A stretch of 19,818 nucleotides of DNA from assembly GCA_003136075.1 (NCBI GenBank), contig PNBP01000172.1, positions 1 through 19,818 on the forward strand, given 5' to 3'. The stretch is from Methanoregula sp. (GTDB taxonomy: Archaea; Halobacteriota; Methanomicrobia; Methanomicrobiales; Methanospirillaceae). A program made the position numbers and the translations under genes. The notes under the pieces were generated by a model. The model had not been told where the DNA came from, did no database searches, and saw only the letters and a program-made list of their open reading frames with translations. This document shows, piece after piece, positions 4,836 to 17,273 of this stretch (the stretch's first letter is position 1; each line of letters opens with the position of its first letter).

Positions 4836-5024
4836 TCAATGCTCGTCGCAGCGGAGCACTCCGCCGTGGCCGATGTCCTCGAGGCTGTGCTCGTCGATCA
4901 TGATCGTGACGAGATCCGGGTCGACATTCAGCGTAGATACAAGGGTGTTCGTGAACTCTTTGACGATCCTGCGTTTCTGTTCCGTGGTCCAGCCTTTGCG
5001 TACTTTGAGTATTACTACGGGCAT
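4836..5024 (-). CDS. 4-oxalocrotonate tautomerase family enzyme
   Basis: The 62-residue product MPVVILKVRKGWTTEQKRRI... is exactly the size of this family. After removal of Met, Pro becomes the N-terminal residue and serves as the catalytic base (Pro1). The strand-helix-strand order and the central TEQKRRIVKEFTNTL helix fit the family, as do the VTIMIDEH strand and the Gly-rich end. I chose the ATG at 5024 over an upstream in-frame start at 5105 because only it puts Pro at position 1, and AAGGTG lies six bases before it. The family interconverts keto and enol forms of 2-oxo acids, or does related chemistry, as small hexamers. The substrate here cannot be read from the context. It is convergent with the repeat-protein gene. 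Confidence 0.9.
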   Translation of the reverse strand: MPVVILKVRKGWTTEQKRRIVKEFTNTLVSTLNVDPDLVTIMIDEHSLEDIGHGGVLRCDEH

Positions 5025-5478
5025 GTAAGCACCTTGACGTAAGATATCTGAACTGAGGATATTTACTTCCTGTGTTTGGATCGGCCGCGGGACCCGGTAC
5101 CCCATTTTTTGCGCACCCGGTTCTGCCCGTACCGGGTTCCGACAGCCTTACATAACTATTAAATTCGCCGTTTTTCCTCTTCCGGAATTTATTCAGCCAG
5201 GCCCATCTCCTTCTGTATGCCATGCTGCTCTGTCAGCGTAACCCCCTCTGACACCGGAGGAGTCCATGAGAACCCCTCCACCTCCCCGGTCCGGAGGAAC
5301 CGGTCGGACAAACGGGAAAAGGAGAACAGAGTAACAAAAACGCTCACGACCTCAGGGAACATTTTTGTTCCTTCAAAAACAGCGGGATGCGTGCTCGGAT
5401 GGTCATAAAAATCCCGTAACGGCCCCTGTTCTCTCTGGAAACCGTTTCATAATCAAAGCCGATTAACTCTCCCGGCCA
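5025..5478. other. Intergenic stretch with a short hairpin and a possible 22-codon ORF
   Basis: No sizeable gene is supported here. A perfect hairpin GGAACA-TTTT-TGTTCC lies at 5356-5371. A tiny plus-strand ORF (5266-5334, 22 residues, Pro/Arg-rich, starting MRTPPPPRSGG) follows a good GGAGGAG motif at 5256-5262, but nothing else supports it. TTTTTTGCGCA lies near 5105. The promoters of the tautomerase (minus strand) and of the genes at 5479-6465 (plus strand) presumably lie here, but I could not fix a clear TATA box. Confidence 0.45.
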
Positions 5479-5634
5479 ATGTCTGGGATGTCAAAGGGCC
5501 CGATGACAGCAAAGAATCCCGGGGGGATTCTTTTTGTCCTGAAGGGGTTTGAAAAAATCCCTTCGGATACGCGGAGTGTTGTGGGAACAACCGCCGCATC
5601 AGGAAAAACAAACGGAGGTATGAACCATGAGTGA
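5479..5634 (+). CDS. Possible small ORF or leader peptide before the two-gene operon
   Basis: The frame gives 51 residues (MSGMSKGPMTAKNPGGILFV...) and ends in TGA at 5632-5634. It overlaps the next gene by eight bases (ATGAGTGA), an arrangement that would couple translation. Internal ATGs at 5488 and 5503 are alternative starts; no strong ribosome-binding site precedes any of them. The frame runs through a 10-bp inverted repeat followed by T residues (5511-5533), so it may be a leader peptide translated through an attenuator-like structure, or simply non-coding leader RNA. No family is recognised. Confidence 0.3.
   Translation: MSGMSKGPMTAKNPGGILFVLKGFEKIPSDTRSVVGTTAASGKTNGGMNHE
5511..5533 (+). 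terminator. Terminator-like hairpin in the leader of the two-gene operon
   Basis: AAAGAATCCC and GGGATTCTTT form a perfect 10-bp stem with a GGG loop, and T continues to 5535. In bacteria this would read as an intrinsic terminator or attenuator; archaea rely more on T tracts alone. Two smaller stems follow, ATCC/GGAT (about 5559-5570) and GTTGT/ACAAC (5579-5592), so the whole leader is structured. Confidence 0.4.
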
Positions 5635-6034
5635 AAAATCTGCAAAAAATTCAGGAAAGGAAATACCGGGCCCTGCCGGGTCCGGTGAAACGGGAACCGG
5701 CCCGGAATCCCCGGAAGCACAGGAACAACGGATGGCGCTCCGTAAAAGTCCCGCGCCGCGGCTCGCTGAGCGGGCCACTGCCCTGAGGGGGCAGGGCATC
5801 GGGCGGCCGCCGGCACCGAAGAGCGTACGCCGGCGCCGGACGCAGGAAGACATCTACGGAACGGATCCCGAGATCCCGTACGTGAAGTTCGAGGCCGCGA
5901 CCCGCGACCTGATCTGCTCCTTAATGGAGCGGCAGGACCGGATGAACAAGGAGATCTTTCTCAGGATTAACGACCTTGGCTACCGGCTCGAAGCACTCGA
6001 AGAAGGCCGGCAGGAAAACGGGGGCGGGCGATGA
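5627..6034 (+). CDS. Hypothetical protein, disordered N-terminus and C-terminal coiled coil
   Basis: This 135-residue protein starts at ATG 5627, placed seven bases after a strong GGAGGT (5614-5619). Residues 1-60 are rich in Gly, Pro, Ser and Glu and look disordered. A basic patch (VRRRR, about residues 67-71) follows and could bind nucleic acid. Residues about 90-128 form a charged helix with regular hydrophobic spacing (LICSLMERQDRMNKEIF...LGYRLEALEEG), likely a coiled coil. The stop overlaps the next start as ATGA, so the two genes are translationally coupled. I do not recognise the family. The partner has a nuclease-like fold pattern, so a DNA-related two-subunit system is a reasonable guess, no more. 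Confidence 0.75.
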   Translation: MSEKSAKNSGKEIPGPAGSGETGTGPESPEAQEQRMALRKSPAPRLAERATALRGQGIGRPPAPKSVRRRRTQEDIYGTDPEIPYVKFEAATRDLICSLMERQDRMNKEIFLRINDLGYRLEALEEGRQENGGGR

Positions 6035-6465
6035 GCCGGGGCAGGCGTCCGCTCAATGCACTTGCTGAAGCGGTGGAGATCGCGGGCCGGCGCGGCTGCG
6101 TGGAGAATGTATCCGGCAGGCGGGGTCGTTCATTCGATTTCCTCATCATCGAACCGTTCCGGGTCGTGTTCGTGAAAGTGAAGCGTTCGCAGACCTCGTT
6201 CACGTACCCCCTGGAAGTCTTGTGCAAATACCAGCGGGAGATCGCGAGTCTTCACCGCGTGGCCCTGACACGGGTAACGGCCCGGGAGTTCTGGGTCCGG
6301 GCCCCGGCCGGGCAATGGCAGTTCTTCCTGGTCCGGCACGATTCGGTGGTTGAAGTCCGGGCCGATGGTACGTACATCCCCCGTGAATCACTCCCCCTGG
6401 AGACCGTGGATCTGTCCGGAACCCCCGCTGACGGAACCGGATCTCCGTCGGAAAACGGGGAGTAA
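6031..6465 (+). CDS. Hypothetical protein with a degenerate PD-(D/E)XK-like core
   Basis: The 144-residue protein overlaps its upstream partner by four bases. Its first 55 residues follow the order of PD-(D/E)XK nucleases of the resolvase/Mrr type. There is a helix with Glu13 (LAEAVEIAGRRG), a variable loop, Asp36 opening a strand (FDFLIIEP), and a second strand ending FVKVKRSQ (residues 47-54). The last motif should be (E/Q)-x-K, but here it reads K49-V-K51, so the usual metal-binding acid is missing. That suggests a DNA-binding or structural derivative rather than an active nuclease. A long basic/aromatic middle (KYQREIASLHR, EFWVRAPAGQWQFF) and a Ser/Gly-rich tail follow. The fold assignment is by motif order only. 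Confidence 0.75.
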   Translation: MSRGRRPLNALAEAVEIAGRRGCVENVSGRRGRSFDFLIIEPFRVVFVKVKRSQTSFTYPLEVLCKYQREIASLHRVALTRVTAREFWVRAPAGQWQFFLVRHDSVVEVRADGTYIPRESLPLETVDLSGTPADGTGSPSENGE

Positions 6466-6469
6466 CCCC

Positions 6470-6479
6470 TTTTTTTGCA
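6470..6479 (+). terminator. Oligo-T terminator (T7 then GCA)
   Basis: Seven T residues followed by GCA begin five bases after the stop of the 6031-6465 gene. T tracts end transcription in archaea. The same T6-GCA string follows uvrA, uvrC and the encapsulin gene. Confidence 0.55.
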
Positions 6480-6683
6480 CCCTCCTTGAAGGGCATCCCT
6501 GGAGGGGCAATCCGGGTCCGTTTCGAGCCCTGTTTACCCCATTTTCGATCAATTTCTGCAAAAAACGGTACACTTTTACACACTTTTTCCGGATACGCAA
6601 TTTTCCTGCGATTCAGGCCAAATGGGGCATTTTGCGTGGCGCTGTAAAACGCTAATGTACGCTATTGGGAGGCGAAAGTCAAA

Positions 6684-6724
6684 GGGGGTGGGGGGTAGCA
6701 TGGGTGCGGGGGAAAGGAAGGGGG
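6684..6724 (+). other. G-quadruplex-forming motif
   Basis: The plus strand has five runs of three to six G (6684-6688, 6690-6695, 6702-6704, 6708-6712, 6720-6724). They are separated by loops of 1, 6, 3 and 7 bases, which meets the usual G3+/N1-7 rule with a spare run. It lies between a terminator and an inverted repeat, outside any supported gene. Confidence 0.7.
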
Positions 6725-6735
6725 TTTTGGAGGTT

Positions 6736-6855: not shown

Positions 6856-7722
6856 CTACAGATGGCCTCCCTTTTCAAATCTACGTAATGGTTTTACAAC
6901 TTTTAATCTATCAGAAAAAATCATCAATTCTTGTCCGACCACAGATCTGCTTGCAGTGTAACGCAAATTGTATTTTTCTTGTCTAAAATTTTTGTACAAG
7001 TTGCGAATCACTTCAACGTTGTCATATGTTAAAATCCAATGAATATTTTCCAACAATTGTAAATCTTCGAAGATTTGTTTATGGTCCCGGTCTTTGTAAT
7101 AATTAAGATAAAGTGCACTTCCTTTTACGTAGTAAGGGGGATCCATATAAATTATCGATTTTTCTGGGAGAGATTTTTTAATAGACTTTATTAATTCTAA
7201 AGCATCGGAGTTACGAAGTTCTATCTGTTTTTTATGACGGGCGATTCGTTGAATTCGCTCTATTAATTCAATTTTATTATATCGTGAATCTATTTTCCAT
7301 TGGCCATCCTGAGTTATTCCTCCAATTACTCCAGCTGAGAGAATTCCTGAGCGATTGGTTCGATTTAAAAAAAATGTCGAGAATCCAAGTTCAATCAAAC
7401 TACATTTCTGTTTGTTTCGTTGTCTGGCCGCTTGCTCTTTCCAATTTGGAATTGTCACTGGAGTCTCTTCTATGAGTTTACAAAACTCATTAGTTTCGTT
7501 CAGAACAGACCACCAAAATGCATATACTGACTGATCAACATCGTTAATAATTATCTTGGAAACATATCCGTCTAAAAGCAAGGAAAGAGCGACAGATGCC
7601 CCCCCTGCGTATGGTTCCACATATACGCCATCACATAACTGATTATCTTTCAAAATTTTTTTGAGGTAAGGTGCAATCCTTCTCTTTCCGCCCGGGTATC
7701 TTAAGGGCGAATAAACATTCAT
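6856..7722 (-). CDS. D12-class adenine-specific DNA methyltransferase (Dam family)
   Basis: The 288-residue protein has the D12/Dam motif order. PLRYPGGKRR (residues 6-15) and VEPYAGGASVALSLL (35-49) form the S-adenosylmethionine site. IYMDPPYY follows, with the DPPY catalytic motif at 194-197, and the C-terminal part ends in a SDRL-type strand. It should methylate adenine N6 in a short DNA site; the target sequence cannot be told. The size is typical (Dam of E. coli is 278 residues). ATG 7722 lies four bases after the stop of the ParB-like gene, so the two are co-transcribed on the minus strand. No restriction endonuclease is obvious, so it is either an orphan methylase, part of a mobile element, or half of a system with the ParB-like partner. 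Its AT-rich codon use differs from the flanking genes. Confidence 0.93.
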   Translation of the reverse strand: MNVYSPLRYPGGKRRIAPYLKKILKDNQLCDGVYVEPYAGGASVALSLLLDGYVSKIIINDVDQSVYAFWWSVLNETNEFCKLIEETPVTIPNWKEQAARQRNKQKCSLIELGFSTFFLNRTNRSGILSAGVIGGITQDGQWKIDSRYNKIELIERIQRIARHKKQIELRNSDALELIKSIKKSLPEKSIIYMDPPYYVKGSALYLNYYKDRDHKQIFEDLQLLENIHWILTYDNVEVIRNLYKNFRQEKYNLRYTASRSVVGQELMIFSDRLKVVKPLRRFEKGGHL

Positions 7723-7726
7723 TAGA

Positions 7727-9073
7727 TCACGGCAGATTATTCCACAAACGCGTCATAAATTCCTGGATGTTATCCCACGCGGTGATCAGATTTTCTGGGT
7801 TTGGTGAAAAAAATCGGTTGTGAACATAATTATGAAACGTATCTATAGATAAGATATTATGCCTATCACCGACGCCAGTTTGGATCCCTTTGCATATATC
7901 CTTTGTTGCAAAGCCTGATTTCATCATATCCTCTGATATTCCAATAACTTTCTCCTTTAAGGTGGGGTTACCTTTCCTTTGGGTGTTTATATTTGGTTTG
8001 CGAGCGTCTATGTAACAATCACAACTCAATTCAACAAATACTCGTAATAAAACAGAAGCTGCGTTTGGGTATTTTGCGACCTCGAGTTTCTTGAGTTCTG
8101 TGAATATATTACTGACCTTTGGATTTCCAATATTGATTGAACAATTTTTGGGAATAACCACTTTTCTTTCGGATGGTTGGGGTTTTGGCCTTAGTTCTGG
8201 ACCTGAAGTCTGAATCGTCGTCACCAGATGCCATGGATTGGTTTCTTTACTACTGATATTTGGTTTTTTATTAGGATCAAATTCGTTAAGATATTTTGCT
8301 CGATTCTCTTTTGAATATATTTTTCCAACAGTGAATCTAGGATCGAGTAAATCTGTTGCGAGCTGAGCTAATCCTTTGATGACTTCTTTTTTAGAGACAG
8401 ATGATTGAACTGCTCCATTTTTATTTACCTCAATACCGAAGAACGCCCGAGCTTGAGGATCAGCCATCATTCTGTCAAAATTAGTGATTTTTGGGTCGTC
8501 CTTTAACCTGATTTTCAATTGATCCGGAACATCAGGAGATTCTTGAAGTAAATGGAATATCTGTAACGAAATGGAAGATTTATTTTCAATTTTCTCTTTG
8601 TATCTGGCTGTCTGATGGGCGTTCCAGCCAACAGTTCCCGCTCCTTTATTTTCTCCGGTATGTTTTAATTTAATCCACTTATTTGCTTCTGTTAAATCGT
8701 CAAAAACATTAACTTCAATTTCTTGAGGTATTTTTGTTTTGAAGGTATTATGAAGTTGCTCGAATTTCCCCTTCAATTTTACGTTATTCTCGATCAGATT
8801 AGGATTATCTAAAAGCTTTAATGCGAGAGATCTTCGGTTACCTTCGAGCACTGTTGGACTGTCTTTCTCTGGACCGGTGTATGCGACTGCAATTTTATCA
8901 TTGGGATTGATACCATTCTCTGCAATATCCCTTGCCAATTCGAATATATTTTCTTTCTGTTCTTTAACCATGACGTCGATTGCTTCCCGTTGGCTTGATA
9001 CAGGATCATATCTAAAATTTTCCGGGTTGACAATAAGATCCGATACAGCAATTTTCTTAATTGTTACAGGCAC
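7727..9073 (-). CDS. ParB/Srx-like domain protein with unknown C-terminal domain
   Basis: The 448-residue protein begins at GTG 9073, preceded by AAAAGGGG. Residues 8-85 fit the ParB/sulfiredoxin-like fold: IAVSDLIVNPENFRYDP, a helix (IFELARDIAENGINPNDKIAV), then VLEGNRRSLAL at 75-85, which matches the GERR-type nucleotide or phosphate-binding motif of ParB. The middle (about 130-300) is basic with no known motif. The C-terminal 150 residues are helical (VSNIFTELKKLEVAKYPNAA) and end with FHNYVHNRFFSPNPENLITA, reminiscent of the His-containing helices of HEPN-like or abortive-infection proteins. It heads the operon with the methyltransferase. ParB-like domains with methylases occur in phages and defence loci, so a role in sequence-specific DNA marking or cleavage is possible. 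An AT-rich stretch at 9085-9118 probably holds the promoter. Confidence 0.8.
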   Translation of the reverse strand: MPVTIKKIAVSDLIVNPENFRYDPVSSQREAIDVMVKEQKENIFELARDIAENGINPNDKIAVAYTGPEKDSPTVLEGNRRSLALKLLDNPNLIENNVKLKGKFEQLHNTFKTKIPQEIEVNVFDDLTEANKWIKLKHTGENKGAGTVGWNAHQTARYKEKIENKSSISLQIFHLLQESPDVPDQLKIRLKDDPKITNFDRMMADPQARAFFGIEVNKNGAVQSSVSKKEVIKGLAQLATDLLDPRFTVGKIYSKENRAKYLNEFDPNKKPNISSKETNPWHLVTTIQTSGPELRPKPQPSERKVVIPKNCSINIGNPKVSNIFTELKKLEVAKYPNAASVLLRVFVELSCDCYIDARKPNINTQRKGNPTLKEKVIGISEDMMKSGFATKDICKGIQTGVGDRHNILSIDTFHNYVHNRFFSPNPENLITAWDNIQEFMTRLWNNLP

Positions 9074-9511
9074 AGATATTCCCCTTTTTAAATATTATTA
9101 TATTTTTTAATTAAAAAAATGTTGCAAAAAAACCGATTCATGAAGATATTTACTGGAACGATCCCTCGGTCTTATAACTTATCGGGACTTGGGATAATTC
9201 CTACAAATCGTTATGTCGTGAAAATTCATATTTTCCTGATTTTCTCCAAGAAGTCCCGTCAACTTATCAGAACCCTCAAACCAATTGGAAATCCGTATTC
9301 AAAGGGTTGCATATTTTAATGGGTTTTGATACGGTTGGATTACTGGGAAGTGATTAAGGTCCCCAGTTTGCCAAACGGATGACGAATTCTGGAATTTATG
9401 ATGAAACAAAAATCCGAGATCCTTGCAGACTTACATTCCAATCTTAACATTTATGATAATTTTGGTGTACAGGATTGGAACTTGCCGGTGTCTGCCCGAT
9501 AATTTTTCTCT
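9074..9511. other. AT-rich gap between ParB-like operon and truncated uvrA copy
   Basis: No supported gene. The first 45 bases are nearly pure A/T and suit the minus-strand promoter. A plus-strand frame at 9119-9319 has no protein-like pattern. A 34-codon frame (9398-9502, MMKQKSEILADLHSNLNI...VSAR) has plausible composition and may be the relic of a gene start or end. No tRNA, hairpin terminator or terminal repeat of a known element was seen. Confidence 0.45.
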
Positions 9512-9769
9512 TCACTTTCATGCCCCGAACTGAACTCCTTTAACTACCGGAGCTAAACAGTCTGAGCACACCAGCATGAAAAACATCATCATCAAAGGTG
9601 CCCGCCAGCACAACCTGAAAAATATCAATGTGGAGATCCCCCGCGACAAGCTTGTCGTCATTACCGGTGTATCCAGCTCCGGTAAATCGACGCTCGCGTT
9701 TGACACGCTATATGCAGAAGGACAGCGCCGGTATGTCGAATCGCTCTCCACGTACGCCCGCCAGTTCCT
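9512..9769 (+). repeat. 258-bp direct repeat, left copy (uvrA leader and first 64 codons)
   Basis: This matches 11272-11529 at a constant offset of 1760 bp. Positions 9512-9628 (117 bp, including the 64-bp leader) are identical to the right copy. The remaining 141 bp hold 13 differences, the first at 9629 and the last at 9761. Twelve are at third codon positions and one at a first position. Confidence 0.97.
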
Positions 9770-9782
9770 TTGGCAAAAATAG
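9576..9782 (+). pseudogene. Truncated 5' copy of uvrA
   Basis: The frame encodes the first 64 residues of UvrA, then LWQK and TAG at 9780-9782. The only amino-acid change in the shared part is in the Walker A loop, where GVSGSGKST of the intact gene reads GVSSSGKST (Gly34 to Ser, AGC for GGT). A 68-residue product would lack the rest of the ATPase and cannot be a working UvrA. It keeps the full leader of the intact gene, so it may still be transcribed. The differences from the intact copy are almost all synonymous, so they arose while the sequence was still coding, probably in another strain, rather than by decay here. Confidence 0.93.
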
Positions 9783-9889
9783 GTAAAATTTCTTTGAAAT
9801 TTATTTTTTGGGATAACTTTGGGTTACCATTGTGGTGAAATTCACTTAAACAAAATTGTCCGACCTCTTGAATTTCTTGGATGTCGCCC

Positions 9890-10777
9890 TTAAAACCCAG
9901 AAAGTTCACTAAATTTTATATCCACGTCTCTGCTGATGTAAATCATAATTATTATTACAACAAAAACTATCCAAAATATCCAAAGAATTGGCGCATTTTG
10001 GCCAAAACTTGAAGAATAATTTAGTATCCCGATTCCGATTATCATACTACCAATAATGATCGAGAGAATGGAAAGAGTTTTTAATAAATCAGAATTCTGA
10101 GCGGAATAATATGTAACCGCCTCTTCATGAAAAGCATCTAATCCAGAAACCGCATTATTGAAAAGGGTTGTATATAGGTCGTATTCTCCATAATCTAGCT
10201 TATTTCGTTGAAAAATTATAAAATTCAATCCGTAAAGGATGCATCCCTTGGCTTGGCGTCGGATGATTGCACTTGAATACATTAAATTTTTATTTCCTTT
10301 TTCTTTTTGAATAGCGATCATCAATTTGATGTGAAAATCATTGTATTCCTGAATTTTTCTTTGATGAAATTCTATTATCTCTTTTACCGCTTGTTTCTCA
10401 TTTGGATTAAACGATGGCTGAGTTAAACTGTCTGGCATTCCATTTTCAGTTCCGTCATCTAATGCATGAGTGTGTTTAAAGTAAATATCTCGAATATCAA
10501 TGAAGGCTTGTTTTAAGAGTAATCTTGATGCAATCTTCTCATCTTTCACCAATTTGATTTTTTCTGGATCAATAAATTTTGACTCAATTTTGATGAAACC
10601 GAATTTGTCAAAATTTTCAATATGGAACGAAACGATTAATTTTAACTTAGAATCTTTTTGCGAACTGAAAAAGAAGATATCTTCAGGAATACGGGATTTT
10701 TCATGGAAACAATATGCAACGAATGTCAATTGTTCCTTGTCTCTATCATTGAAGCTGGCTGCACGAAAAAAAACCAA
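9890..10777 (-). CDS. Unknown protein with two C-terminal membrane helices (start uncertain)
   Basis: From TTG 10777 the frame gives 295 residues, but the open, protein-like reading continues upstream with no ATG or GTG. It reads back through LVFFRAAS, LIDPYIPKDF and ITDFFSELLEI to about ATT 10954 and stays open to a TGA near 11057. The true product is therefore probably near 355 residues, with a non-standard start, coupling to the upstream small gene (which ends at 10945), or a lost N-terminus. The soluble part is mixed alpha/beta with many Lys, Glu and Phe. Residues about 110-160 are helical and charged (KQAVKEIIEFHQRKIQEYND). Two membrane helices lie at about 235-252 and 264-281, with a short cytoplasmic tail. 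No family is recognised. Lying in the cassette at uvrA, it may be a membrane effector of a small defence or toxin-like pair. Confidence 0.65.
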   Translation of the reverse strand: MVFFRAASFNDRDKEQLTFVAYCFHEKSRIPEDIFFFSSQKDSKLKLIVSFHIENFDKFGFIKIESKFIDPEKIKLVKDEKIASRLLLKQAFIDIRDIYFKHTHALDDGTENGMPDSLTQPSFNPNEKQAVKEIIEFHQRKIQEYNDFHIKLMIAIQKEKGNKNLMYSSAIIRRQAKGCILYGLNFIIFQRNKLDYGEYDLYTTLFNNAVSGLDAFHEEAVTYYSAQNSDLLKTLSILSIIIGSMIIGIGILNYSSSFGQNAPILWIFWIVFVVIIIMIYISRDVDIKFSELSGF

Positions 10778-10944
10778 ATGGTAATTCTTAAGAGTATTTT
10801 TATCCAGATCCGATAGTCGGTCCTCAAACTCTTTCAGATGAGAAAAATCTTTTGGGATGTATGGATCAATCAGGAAAATATTGCCGGAAAACGACGGTAC
10901 ATACCCAAAACAACGAATTTCTAACAGCTCCGAAAAAAAATCTG

Positions 10945-11148
10945 TTATCGCAATTCTTTTAGAATTTGTTTTCCCATGACAGTTATAATAGCAGTTTCTC
11001 TCATTGTTTCGATATCCAATCCTCGTCTCATCAATCCGATGGTAGACAAATGGTCAATCAAGATCGCGTCTCTCTCTTGATTGACGTAGTCTCCCGAGGA
11101 ATATTGCTCCAAAACCCGCGCTTCATCAGCGAGAATACTCGTCTGCAT
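10945..11148 (-). CDS. Small winged-helix-like protein
   Basis: From ATG 11148 the product is 67 residues; an in-frame GTG at 11160 would add four. I prefer the ATG because GGTGGGG lies six bases before it. Helical segments (ADEARVLEQYSSGDY, RDAILIDHLSTIGLMRRG) are followed by a hairpin-like TAIITVMGKQILKEL. The pattern L-x-x-I-G-L-[x]n-a-x-I-T-x-x-G-K-x-I-L is that of the end of a winged-helix DNA-binding domain. It may be a small regulator, or the tail of a larger protein whose start was lost at insertion. The next gene reads on in another frame across its stop, so the two are probably coupled or derive from one frameshifted gene. It is divergent from uvrA. Confidence 0.55.
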   Translation of the reverse strand: MQTSILADEARVLEQYSSGDYVNQERDAILIDHLSTIGLMRRGLDIETMRETAIITVMGKQILKELR

Positions 11149-11271
11149 GTTTGGCCCCACCAGTCGGTAGCATCATTGCCCAGCATCAGCTACCACAAAT
11201 AAATGATACAAAGTTACAAATCTATTTAATTCTATGGATGATCGCGAAATAATCCAAAACAATCCCCTCCA

Positions 11272-11529
11272 TCACTTTCATGCCCCGAACTGAACTCCTT
11301 TAACTACCGGAGCTAAACAGTCTGAGCACACCAGCATGAAAAACATCATCATCAAAGGTGCCCGCCAGCACAACCTGAAAAATATCAACGTCGAGATCCC
11401 CCGCGACAAGCTTGTCGTGATTACCGGCGTATCCGGTTCCGGTAAATCGACGCTCGCGTTTGATACCCTGTACGCAGAAGGACAGCGACGATATGTCGAA
11501 TCGCTCTCCACGTACGCCCGGCAGTTCCT
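11272..11529 (+). repeat. 258-bp direct repeat, right copy (start of intact uvrA)
   Basis: This is the partner of 9512-9769. It ends at CAGTTCCT within codon 65 of uvrA. The sequences on either side of the two copies are unrelated: AT-rich DNA before both, and uvrA coding sequence only after this one. Confidence 0.97.
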
Positions 11530-14146
11530 CGGCCTGATGCATAAGCCGGATGTGGACAGCATCGAAGGACTTTCTCCGGCGATCTCGATTGAACAGAAGA
11601 CTACGTCAAAAAATCCCCGGTCAACGGTCGGGACGACAACCGAGATTTACGATTATCTCCGTCTCTTGTTTGCCCGGATCGGGACCCCCTATTGTCCCGA
11701 GCACAATATCCCGATTGCCTCCCAGACCCCGGACCGGATTGCCGACCAGATCGCTACAGAACACCCCGGCATGGTAACCATCCTTTCCCCGATCGTCCGG
11801 CAGAAGAAGGGTACGTACCAGCAGCTGCTAAAAGACCTGAATAAAGAGGGGTTTACCCGGGTGCGGGTAAACGGGAAAATCATCCGCACCGATGAGGAGA
11901 TCGCGCTCGACCGGTACAAAAAACAGGATATCGAGATCGTGATCGACCGGCTTGACTCATCTGACCGCTCCCGCCTTGCCGAAGCCGTTGAGAACACCCT
12001 TAAAAAATCCGAAGGGCTCGTGCTTGTTGTCGATGAAAATGGGAAGGAATCCACCTATTCTTCTCTCATGGCATGCCCGGTCTGCGGGCTTGCATTTGAG
12101 GAACTCCAGCCAAGGATGTTCTCGTTCAACAGCCCGTTTGGTGCCTGCGAGGAATGCCACGGCCTCGGGGTCAAGATGGAATTTGACGCCGACCTCATCA
12201 TCCCGGACAAGACCCGGTGCATCGCGGATGGTGCGGTTGCCCCGTACCGGAACCCGATGGACGGATTCCGGGGCCAGTACCTTGCGACAGTTGCAAAACA
12301 TTTCGGCTTTGATGCCCTTACGCCGATAAAGGACCTGACGGAACGGCAGTACAACGCGCTGATGTATGGTTCGGATGAACGGATGCATTTCTCGATGAGC
12401 ATGAAAAACGGGGATGCCCAATGGTCGCACAACGGCGAATGGGAAGGGCTCCTGCCCCAGACTGCCCGGCTCTACAACCAGACGCAGTCCGACTGGCGCA
12501 AACGGGAACTGGAAAGTTATATGCGGGTATTTCCCTGCCCGAAATGCAAAGGGCAGCGGCTCAAGGACAAAGTGCTTGCCGTCCGGATTAACGGGAAATC
12601 TATTATCGACGTAACGGATCTGTCCGTGAGCGGAAGCATACGGTTCTTCGCCGAGCTGAAATTAACGGACAAGGAGGTGGAGATCGCCCGGCAGATCATC
12701 AAGGAGATCCGGTCCCGGCTGGAATTCCTTGAAAAAGTCGGGCTTGGCTATCTCACGCTCTCCCGGAATGCCGGTACCCTCTCCGGCGGTGAAGCACAGC
12801 GGATCCGGCTTGCCACCCAGATCGGCTCTAACCTGATGGGAGTGCTCTATGTCCTTGACGAGCCGTCTATCGGGCTGCACCAGCGGGACAACCGGAAACT
12901 GATCGAAACGCTGCGGACGCTTCGCGATATCGGGAACACGCTGATCGTCGTTGAGCATGATGAGGATATGATCCGCAGTGCCGATCACGTGATTGATATC
13001 GGGCCCGGTGCCGGGCTCCATGGCGGTGCAATTGTGGCGGAAGGGACGCCAAAGCAGATTGAGAAGAACAAAAAATCCCTCACCGGCCAGTACCTTTCCG
13101 GTGTTAAATCGATCGGGATCCCGGAAAAACGGCGGAAGGCGCAAAAATATATCAAAATACGCGGGTGCCGGGAAAACAACTTAAAAAACATCACGGCAAA
13201 AATCCCGATTGGTCTTTTTACGGTTGTCACCGGGGTTTCGGGCAGCGGCAAGTCAACGCTCATCTACGATACGCTGTATAAGGGGATGATGAAAAAGCTG
13301 CATGAGTCCCGGGAACAGGCCGGCGATCATGACGGTATCGATTTTGATCTGGAAATTGACAAGGTGATCGTCATCGACCAGAGTCCTATCGGCAGGAGGC
13401 CCCGGTCCAACCCCGCAACCTATACAAAAGTCTTCGATGAGATCCGGCAGATCTTTGCTGAAACAAAGGAAGCAAAGATGCGGGGGTTCAAGCCCGGGCG
13501 TTTCTCCTTTAACCTGAAAGGCGGGCGCTGCGAGGCGTGCGAGGGAGACGGATTGATCCGCATCGAGATGAACTTCCTGCCGGATGTCTATATCGAATGC
13601 GAGGAATGCAAGAGCAAACGGTATAACCGGGAAACGCTGGAAGTGAAATACAAGGGCAAATCGATCGCCGACGTGCTGGATATGAGCGTCGAGGAAGCAC
13701 TTGTTTTGTTTGAAAATATCCCGTCGATCAAAAGCAAGATCGAGATGCTCTCCCGGGTCGGGCTCGATTACGTCAAGCTCGGGCAGAGCGCGACAACGCT
13801 TTCCGGTGGTGAGGCGCAGCGGATTAAACTCACCCGTGAGCTGGCGAAACGTGCGACCGGGAAAACCCTGTACCTGCTCGATGAGCCGACGACCGGTCTT
13901 CACTTCGATGATACCAAAAAACTGATCAAAGTACTTGACGATCTGGTGGAAAAGGGCAACACCGTGGTCGTGATTGAGCACAACCTCGATGTGATTAAAT
14001 CGGCGGATTATATCCTTGATATCGGGCCGGAAGGCGGGGATGCCGGCGGGGAGATCGTGGCAACCGGGACTCCGGAAGCGGTGGCAAATGTCGCAGCAAG
14101 TTTCACGGGACAGTATCTGAAACCGATGCTGGCGGGAAGAGAGTAG
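11336..14146 (+). CDS. uvrA: Excinuclease ABC subunit UvrA
   Basis: The 936-residue protein is full length for UvrA and complete in motifs. The first ATPase has Walker [10 protein letters not shown] (residues 31-39), signature LSGGE (482-486) and Walker B LYVLDEP (504-510). The second has Walker A from 633 (Lys639), signature from 822 and LYLLDEP (845-851). Zinc modules are Cys247/250/271/274 and Cys732/735/755/758; the second is the DNA-contacting finger. UvrA dimers scan DNA for bulky lesions and load UvrB, after which UvrC cuts. Bacterial-type UvrABC occurs in many mesophilic methanogens, probably by old transfer from bacteria. The gene ends in TAG, followed by an oligo-T tract. Its leader and first 64 codons recur 1760 bp upstream, so the present promoter region (before 11272) may be foreign. 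Confidence 0.98.
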
Positions 14147-16106: not shown

Positions 16107-16466
16107 ATGCCAGAATTTGTCAATCCTTTCAGTGGAATAGTACCGGACCGCAAAATGACGCACGAGGAACTTGTGCGGGCAGTCCGTCTTGATATTGCCG
16201 GGGAACTTGAAGCAATTCATCTTTATATGGCCCATGCCGATGCAACCGATAACCCTCTTGCAAAGGCCGTCCTTGTGGATATCGCTGATGAAGAGCGGGT
16301 TCACGTGGGGGAACTGATGCGGCTAATGGCAATCCTCACCGGCAATGAGGATGAATTCCTGAAGAAAGGAACCCTTGAAGTCGATACAATGGCGGCAAAA
16401 ATTGCTCCGGCAGCACAGGGCTCCGGACCGGTACAGCAGGAAACGACAATTGGATCATTGAAATAA
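16107..16466 (+). CDS. Encapsulated ferritin (EncFtn), encapsulin cargo protein
   Basis: The 119-residue protein has two helices bearing the EncFtn metal site: Glu33 in GELEAIHLYM, and Glu63/His66 in DEERVHVGELM. These are one position off Glu32, Glu62 and His65 of the Rhodospirillum rubrum protein. EncFtn forms a ring-shaped decamer with ferroxidase sites at dimer interfaces. It oxidises Fe(II) but needs the encapsulin shell to store the mineral. Residues about 85-112 are a flexible linker, and the tail TIGSLK is the cargo-loading peptide (compare the (L)TVGSLR type). The gene lies 18 bp before the encapsulin gene, the standard order, and behind a clear TATA box and GGAG site. It would protect the cell from iron and oxidative stress. 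Confidence 0.95.
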   Translation: MPEFVNPFSGIVPDRKMTHEELVRAVRLDIAGELEAIHLYMAHADATDNPLAKAVLVDIADEERVHVGELMRLMAILTGNEDEFLKKGTLEVDTMAAKIAPAAQGSGPVQQETTIGSLK

Positions 16467-16484
16467 ATTCAGGAGATGTAAACC

Positions 16485-17273
16485 ATGGAAAACAAATATC
16501 TCGGGCGCGGGGATGCGCCCATTGCAGCGGAAACCTGGAACCTGCTCGACACGGTTATGGTGGAATCCGCAAAAAGCCAGCTTGTCGGCCGCAGAATACT
16601 TCCGATTGAAGGCCCGTACGGGTTGGGCCTCAAGTCCATTTCCCTTGGGGATTATGTAATCGATGACGGGATCACGGGCAGTGCATCTGTTCCGGTAACG
16701 ATGATCCGGACCGATTTCAGCCTTGCCAAACGGGATCTTGCGGCATTTGAACGGGATCACCTGTTCCTCGATACCGCACCGGTTGCCTGCGCTGCAATGG
16801 ACTGTGCAGCAAAAGAAGACCAGATCCTCCTTTCCGGGCTCCCCGGTATCCCGGGACTTATGAACGTGGAAGGTGCAGGTTCCTACAGCCTGTCCAAGTG
16901 GGAAAAAGTCGGTACTGCCGCAGACCAGATTATCGATGCGGTAACAAAACTTGACGAGGCCGGGTTCCATGGTCCCTACAGCATGGCATTAGCCCCGTCG
17001 CTGTTTAATCTTCTCCTGCGCCGGTATCCGCAGGGTGCAGGTACCGAGCTCGATCATATCCGTTCGATTGTCACCGATGGCGTCGTGAAAGCTCCCAACT
17101 TAAAGAAAGGCGGGGTCCTGCTGGCATCGGGAAAACAGTACGTGTCTGTTGCGATTGGCCAGGATATGGTGCTCGGGTACAACGGGCCTGTTGGGGATCT
17201 CCTTGAGTTCCAGGTCTACGAGAGCCTGGCCCTCATGGTTCATGCACCCCAGTCAATCTGCGTGCTCAAATAA
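16485..17273 (+). CDS. Encapsulin shell protein (family 1, HK97 fold)
   Basis: The 262-residue protein matches family 1 encapsulins (linocin M18-like) in length and pattern. It has an N-terminal helix that binds cargo tails (ENKYLGRGDAPIAAETW), then LVGRRILPIEGPYGLG, DYVIDDGITGS, FERDHLFLDT, and the C-terminal GYNGPVGDLLEFQVYESLAL. Such proteins assemble into icosahedral shells of HK97 phage-capsid ancestry. The shell would hold the ferritin encoded just upstream, whose TIGSLK tail docks inside. AGGAGATG (16471-16478) is a good ribosome-binding site seven bases before the ATG. No phage genes are nearby, so this is a cellular compartment and not a prophage capsid. An oligo-T tract ends the operon. 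Confidence 0.97.
   Translation: MENKYLGRGDAPIAAETWNLLDTVMVESAKSQLVGRRILPIEGPYGLGLKSISLGDYVIDDGITGSASVPVTMIRTDFSLAKRDLAAFERDHLFLDTAPVACAAMDCAAKEDQILLSGLPGIPGLMNVEGAGSYSLSKWEKVGTAADQIIDAVTKLDEAGFHGPYSMALAPSLFNLLLRRYPQGAGTELDHIRSIVTDGVVKAPNLKKGGVLLASGKQYVSVAIGQDMVLGYNGPVGDLLEFQVYESLALMVHAPQSICVLK

Follow-up and report, generated by a model that had tools for sequence, protein, structure and literature searches.

Insertion of restriction-modification genes with a long duplication of their target has been described (Nobusato et al. 2000, as cited in the available portions of PMC3031569 and PMC1643837). The stretch upstream of uvrA in Methanoregula resembles the cases related in those portions in that defence genes are bracketed by long direct target repeats of variable length. 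The insert analysed here is flanked by long direct repeats copied from its target, and in relatives the inserted genes are restriction-modification or similar genes, while the gene of this insert has no family match. Unlike those cases, the start of a single gene recurs across species with one edge nearly fixed, an old lineage of the fragment travels, and sequence passes between its copies and the intact gene. A second precedent is that of the integrase-less hotspots (Oliveira et al. 2017, PMC5635113, available in part), where variable genes likewise lie beside conserved ones with no recognisable recombinase and with a recombining core gene at the flank. Here, too, variable genes lie between conserved neighbours without recombinase genes, DDE transposases standing beside the fragment in two genomes (G029 and G001), and the flanking core gene recombines, as seen from identity tracts between fragment and gene and from promoter types compared with the tree. 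The available text of that paper proposes double recombination in intact flanking genes, whereas here truncated copies of the flanking gene lie inside the island.

In Pseudomonas aeruginosa, core defence hotspots (PMC10250203) likewise consist of a varied set of defence systems flanked by fixed core genes, and transfer through homologous recombination has been suggested for them; according to the part of that text available, such transfer would leave no mobile-element scars, whereas fragments of a gene start persist here. The homeocassettes of Halorubrum ezzemoulense (PMC11078007) are archaeal islands swapped between the same core genes, again with homologous recombination of the flanks suggested, and the portion of that paper available names no repeated fragment of a flanking gene, which is present here. 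Finally, integron cassette arrays are known in archaea (PMC9668308, available in part) and share with this locus small, mostly one-gene units that lie between repeats beside a fixed landing point. Unlike them, this locus has no integrase of the general integrase family beside it, and its repeat is the start of a protein gene. Among the literature matches listed, no title dealt with insertions at uvrA in methanogens. Within a literature sample that mostly left out subscription papers and preprints, the text available mentioned no decayed core-gene fragment recurring across species beside unrelated defence cassettes.

The window, i.e., the whole stretch of 19,818 nucleotides analysed, comes from contig C20 of a 2.16-Mb Methanoregula draft genome in 197 contigs (G000). 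Its sole long direct repeat is 258 nt in length (9512-9769 and 11272-11529, spacing 1760), and just one other direct-repeat family was reported, of 22 nt. The second copy (11272..11529, + strand) comprises the promoter and the first 194 coding bases of a complete uvrA of 936 aa (11336..14146, +; UvrA_inter, UvrA_DNA-bind and ABC_tran matches). The first copy (9512..9769, +), referred to as T, is a truncated uvrA start that keeps 64 promoter bases followed by some 65 codons. Between them lies a cassette of 1502 bp (9770..11271). Its cargo gene (9890..10927, - strand) codes for some 346 aa with membrane helices at the C-terminus, as judged by eye; the start at 10927, a position without ATG, was set from P0003 and P0004 (345 and 348 aa), two metagenome proteins that are 72% and 66% identical to it. 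The cargo protein gave no Pfam match above the cut-off and 9890-10777 no PADLOC match, and its family has three members in 5.8 billion proteins, itself included; it is a candidate for a single-gene defence protein. Upstream of it, a 71-aa reading frame without Pfam match (10945..11160, -) is a possible small partner.

To the left of T lie two adjacent genes of a PD-Lambda-5 system, encoding the B-type adenine methyltransferase (6856..7722, -; Pfam MethyltransfD12; PADLOC PD-Lambda-5_B, E 2e-122) and the A-type protein (7727..9073, -; PADLOC PD-Lambda-5_A, E 5e-146). A tautomerase gene (4836..5105, -; Pfam Tautomerase) adjoins uvrA in G007, G010 and G059 and is therefore the conserved gene that bounds the island on the left; in the window the two are 6.2 kb apart, with the PD-Lambda-5 pair and the cassette between them. 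In G023 and G034 the gene adjoining uvrA encodes a DHH/DHHA2/CBS protein, which we take to be ppaC and name so here. The GC content is 36.7% in the PD-Lambda-5 pair and 34.6% in the cassette, against 54.8% in uvrA and 51-55% in the surrounding conserved genes; positions 5610-6475 reach 62%. A non-coding block at 6457-6731 is 73-77% identical to island stretches of G035, G037 and G033, and adjoins ppaC in G035. Further downstream, 16107-17273 encodes an encapsulin-type shell protein (Linocin_M18) with a small ferritin-like protein (rubrerythrin/EncFtn-like) directly before it, likely an encapsulated ferritin pair.

The two copies of the repeat are identical at 245 of 258 aligned positions. The first 117 bases, 64 of which lie 5' of the ATG, show no difference, and the following 141 bases contain 13, with the edge of the shared tract at 9628/11388. 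Twelve of the 13 differences fall on third codon positions, and at all 12 sites the base of T is also present in other full uvrA copies, in just 1 of 37 at site 9710. The remaining one (9675/11435, first codon position) changes a P-loop G to S in the window T; the G was found in 37 of 37 other full copies and the S only in this T. At least 12 of 13 differences would fall on third positions by chance with P = 1.7e-5. The absence of all 13 from the first 117 bases has P = 2e-5 with sites weighted by variability, and P = 3e-4 (6 of 20,000 draws) if the identical stretch is not fixed beforehand. Third-position bias, occurrence of the T bases in other full copies and the improbability of both biases argue that the copies are two uvrA alleles shaped in working genes, T carrying one decay mark in addition. 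In the diverged part the two are mutual nearest relatives in the sample (128/141 vs at most 122/141 for others), so the second allele came from a near relative. A later partial replacement of the complete uvrA would give the same pattern, so the foreign copy may be either T or the complete gene.

These results bear out much of the sequence-only reading, namely a mosaic, near-synonymous duplication of the uvrA start, a sharp identity edge between two selected alleles, and AT-rich cargo between the copies, for which no DNA match was obtained in the other 107 of the 108 family genomes, the cassette matching itself alone. That reading had named close kinship of the copies, coupled with random substitutions in the shorter one, as grounds against itself; the kinship was found, the random substitutions were not.

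T was sought in 39 Methanoregula genomes by DNA search and by profile searches of loci; 31 genus loci were readable, over 1.0 to 14 kb upstream of uvrA each, and were aligned together with two of the sister genus (n = 33). The genome contig set comprised 80 loci kept from 203, and a profile scan recovered T only in L113, the record of G035. Matches about 1.8 kb inside uvrA stem from the second ATPase part of the gene itself; they were left out of the count, as were G037 and G005, whose contigs end within the uvrA start. T precedes the complete uvrA in six of the 31 genus loci (G000, G018, G025, G029, G035, G036), forming a unit of 1.0-2.1 kb with one recognisable gene between the two, the value for G025 being extrapolated. 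Six more genomes carry T on another contig or at another place, i.e., G001 and G015 with two copies each, G012, G022, G008 with two short degraded pieces, and G028 with the promoter part only, which brings the total to 12 of 39; a further T is present in G052, of another genus. No T was found upstream in the other 25 genus loci. Most of these differ there, so turnover of the island does not need T, a point against the homology-tract reading given below. In G037, contigs C22 and C9 (L040, L029) share an exact 123-base overlap inside the uvrA start, which hints at a second copy that the assembly could not resolve.

Relatives without inserted DNA beside uvrA have a single copy of its start, and with these near-empty sites and the repeated occupation of the place, the recurrent docking before uvrA suggested from the window alone was found in related genomes. 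As controls, the starts of fumA and uvrC were searched, and in neither case did the same stretch recur: fumA matched in 37 of 39 genomes, at one place each except in G026, where two places cover different parts of the query, and uvrC in 35 of 39, at one place each, this control being less sensitive because its query is less conserved. Degraded T pieces lie in front of fumA in G015, G022 and G008; T thus also moves to sites that lack homology to uvrA. Like the region before uvrA, the one preceding fumA is hypervariable (L039:2300-9195, L044:2781-3830, L190).

The stretch before uvrA is a hypervariable defence-gene hotspot of Methanoregula. Sequence to the left of TCACTTTCATGCCCC mostly differs among the 33 aligned loci, the exceptions being near relatives (e.g., G001/G022/G008) and shared cassettes. 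The gene between T and uvrA encodes SoFic in G029, a YhcG/DUF1016 nuclease (PADLOC candidate PDC-S02) in G036 and a GNAT protein in G025, split over two frames in G018; the cassette proteins of the window and of G035 have no family match. On the other side of T lie PD-Lambda-5 in the window, an ApeA-like protein in G036, Avs4 in G025, AriA/AriB in G018 and an IrrE-type peptidase in G035. The T contigs of G001 carry Eco29kI-type and BfiI-type restriction systems, and those of G012 and, by likeness, of G015 type III restriction systems. PADLOC gave no match for 8 of 20 proteins scanned, namely, in addition to the window cargo protein, those at window 5627-6034 and 6031-6465, L035:5611-6279, L035:2467-3129, L039:3452-4798, the GNAT protein, and L039:8003-8761, whose weak match was counted as none.

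Two cassettes are shared at the same place: the GNAT cassette of G018 and G025 (792 bp, 93% identity) and a 4.0-kb stretch of G030 and G038 (90%). In both cases well-supported branches keep the two species apart. Two further elements recur in these islands. An intergenic element, GC-rich and some 100 bp long, lies 3' of T in G001, G012 and G015 and is frequent in island stretches (L037, L038, L039, L041, L044, L181, L188, L190 and others). Short repeats of the ATGTCGGGATT type are present in the leaders of both the SoFic and the YhcG cassette, and elsewhere in the family (L232:1889-1921, L233:1963-2015, L034 near 11150, L033 near 11250).

Exchange between T and uvrA is visible in several genomes. 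Runs identical between T and the uvrA of the same genome measure 117 bases in G000, 58 and 128 in G029, and 160 in G036, where the run adjoins a promoter of another type. These are the three least decayed T copies, all sharing long identical tracts with the uvrA of their genome; T of G018, G025 and G035 is too diverged for this comparison. Among six T copies of genomes with promoter type A, five are closer to uvrA of other types than to their own, and the sixth (G022, 130 bases) has no clear preference between own and other types. Promoter types were assigned by eye from the locus alignment, before the tree was made. Type A agrees with the tree of distal uvrA. For type C (G035, G016, G028, G038), a single clade is rejected on distal uvrA (p-AU 1.7e-75), also without G035 (p-AU 3e-4), and the type takes four changes on that tree, of which at least three are forced.

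The history of T can be followed through a frameshift. The string CGGTWCRCCTGASTC has five exact matches in the 39 genomes, all in T (G001, G015, G018, G029, G036), the right-hand neighbours of which are all different, and occurs in 0 of 33 complete uvrA genes. It is absent from T of G000, G012, G025, G035 and G052 and from the second T of G001; a one-mismatch match in G005 was rejected, its surroundings being unlike uvrA. This distribution shows a derived frameshift and an old T lineage present in several genomes; not every fragment in the relatives, then, arose anew.

Recombinases and carriers were searched for as well. In 20 genomes, no phage-integrase or resolvase match (PF00589, PF00239) lies within 38 kb on any uvrA contig, nor is there one on the T contigs C226, C234, C56 and C43. 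The closest integrase-family match, 38 kb off in G038, belongs to a gene (about 307 aa) that most of the 20 genomes carry, presumably the housekeeping XerA. An integrative element with its own tyrosine or serine recombinase at uvrA was thus rejected; as to an attachment sequence, the right junction is nearly constant and the left junctions are imprecise. Viral contigs held no stretch with the core-plus-TATA pattern or the 26-mer of the coding start; the 16-mer core occurred in 10 viral-contig stretches, which beyond the core did not resemble the uvrA start (best E 0.21) and were dismissed. The 258-bp fragment met partial likeness of 60-90% identity in 134 plasmid and 18 phage records. None covers 80% of the query, the 18 phage matches and the 20 listed of the 134 plasmid matches begin no earlier than query base 65, i.e., in the coding part, and several of those listed are annotated uvrA. 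Among the viral contigs searched and the phage and plasmid matches listed, none holds the promoter-plus-start fragment, and Rfam gave no match at the gathering threshold. The Campbell-type integration of a circle first proposed for the window thus found no circle or carrier in its favour, and the second AT-rich defence block, PD-Lambda-5, to the left of T contradicts the idea that T forms the outer boundary of the insert.

T and uvrA exchange sequence, T stands beside varied cargos, and promoters are out of step with the uvrA tree. Our preferred reading, held tentatively and at a little under even confidence, is that T copies act as homology tracts that recombine with uvrA and with each other, so that host recombination gains, loses and swaps defence cassettes. 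Recombination between T and uvrA would release the cassette between them as a small circle; this circle, or linear DNA derived from a relative, could by homology integrate into a different Methanoregula, either at uvrA or at a further T, both steps using only host RadA-type recombination. Entry would yield one truncated fragment and one complete uvrA, provided that the crossover lies 5' of any damage in the fragment. In the window, alleles of two near relatives would have met, with the tract edge described above as the trace. The first T may go back either to the single-crossover integration of a circle or to an insertion event in which the target was duplicated.

Close behind the homology-tract reading comes the view that long target duplication founded T. 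Under this alternative, which is possible if doubtful, a target-duplicating insertion made T, one of the two copies was afterwards partly replaced through allelic recombination, and T is a scar rather than a tool. A long target repeat, variable in length at one end, stands on both sides of single defence cassettes, as in the insertions described for restriction-modification genes in the excerpts cited at the outset. The Fic cassette of G029 starts within about 5 bases of the end of T and occurs in G001 in a contig stretch without T, which speaks for such a founding; its left end meets the end of T as if T were merely cut target. T before fumA, a place to which homology with uvrA cannot have led it, likewise counts against homology as the guide, and the transposase genes that adjoin T in G029 and G001 suggest that insertion sequences may have moved some copies. 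However, the left edge is nearly constant, whereas the target duplications described in those excerpts are long and variable; the old T of five genomes was not made afresh from each uvrA; and the two alleles of the window require a second step after duplication.

A site-specific recombinase encoded elsewhere, acting at YTCACTTTCATGCCCC (11271..11286, +; 9511-9526 in T), with elements that carry the uvrA start as attachment site, is improbable. The locus alignment places the left edge of the conserved block at this sequence, the start of the block coincides between T and the complete copies, with mostly different sequence to its left, and the common cassette of G030 and G038 abuts it while the promoters behind differ, all as such an enzyme would leave them. 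Against it stand the lack of integrase and resolvase genes near uvrA and on T contigs, the seven alignments of empty and filled sites, in which no precise left insertion point was seen, and the motif CACTTTC of the left edge, present in 27 of the 33 loci and missing in six. The near-constant edge may be the mark of a site-specific enzyme or just the limit of promoter constraint. A decaying local tandem duplication or an assembly fault, for which only the fragmented draft would speak, is very improbable and was set aside given the third-position bias, the identity edge, the AT-rich cargo between the copies and the same arrangement of T before complete uvrA in the single-contig genomes G018 and G036.

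Beyond the homology-tract reading itself, the locus might represent an integrase-free cassette system, a proposal we regard as rather unlikely at present. In it, the 5' fragment of a housekeeping gene would serve as a portable homology arm that carries mostly single-gene defence cassettes between species and docks them before uvrA and beside other T copies. The arm itself would be renewed through gene conversion, with the intact gene as donor. If true, T-cassette units would pile up at uvrA as integron cassettes do at attI. For defence-island turnover without integrases, recombination in flanking core genes has so far been argued largely from statistics. At this locus the marks of exchange can be read in fragments of different age, mosaic edges and promoters out of step, and a frameshift traces one fragment lineage across species, which makes the mechanism testable. 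If the proposed mechanism is true, the promoter of a DNA-repair gene would be exchanged in Methanoregula as a by-product of defence-gene traffic.
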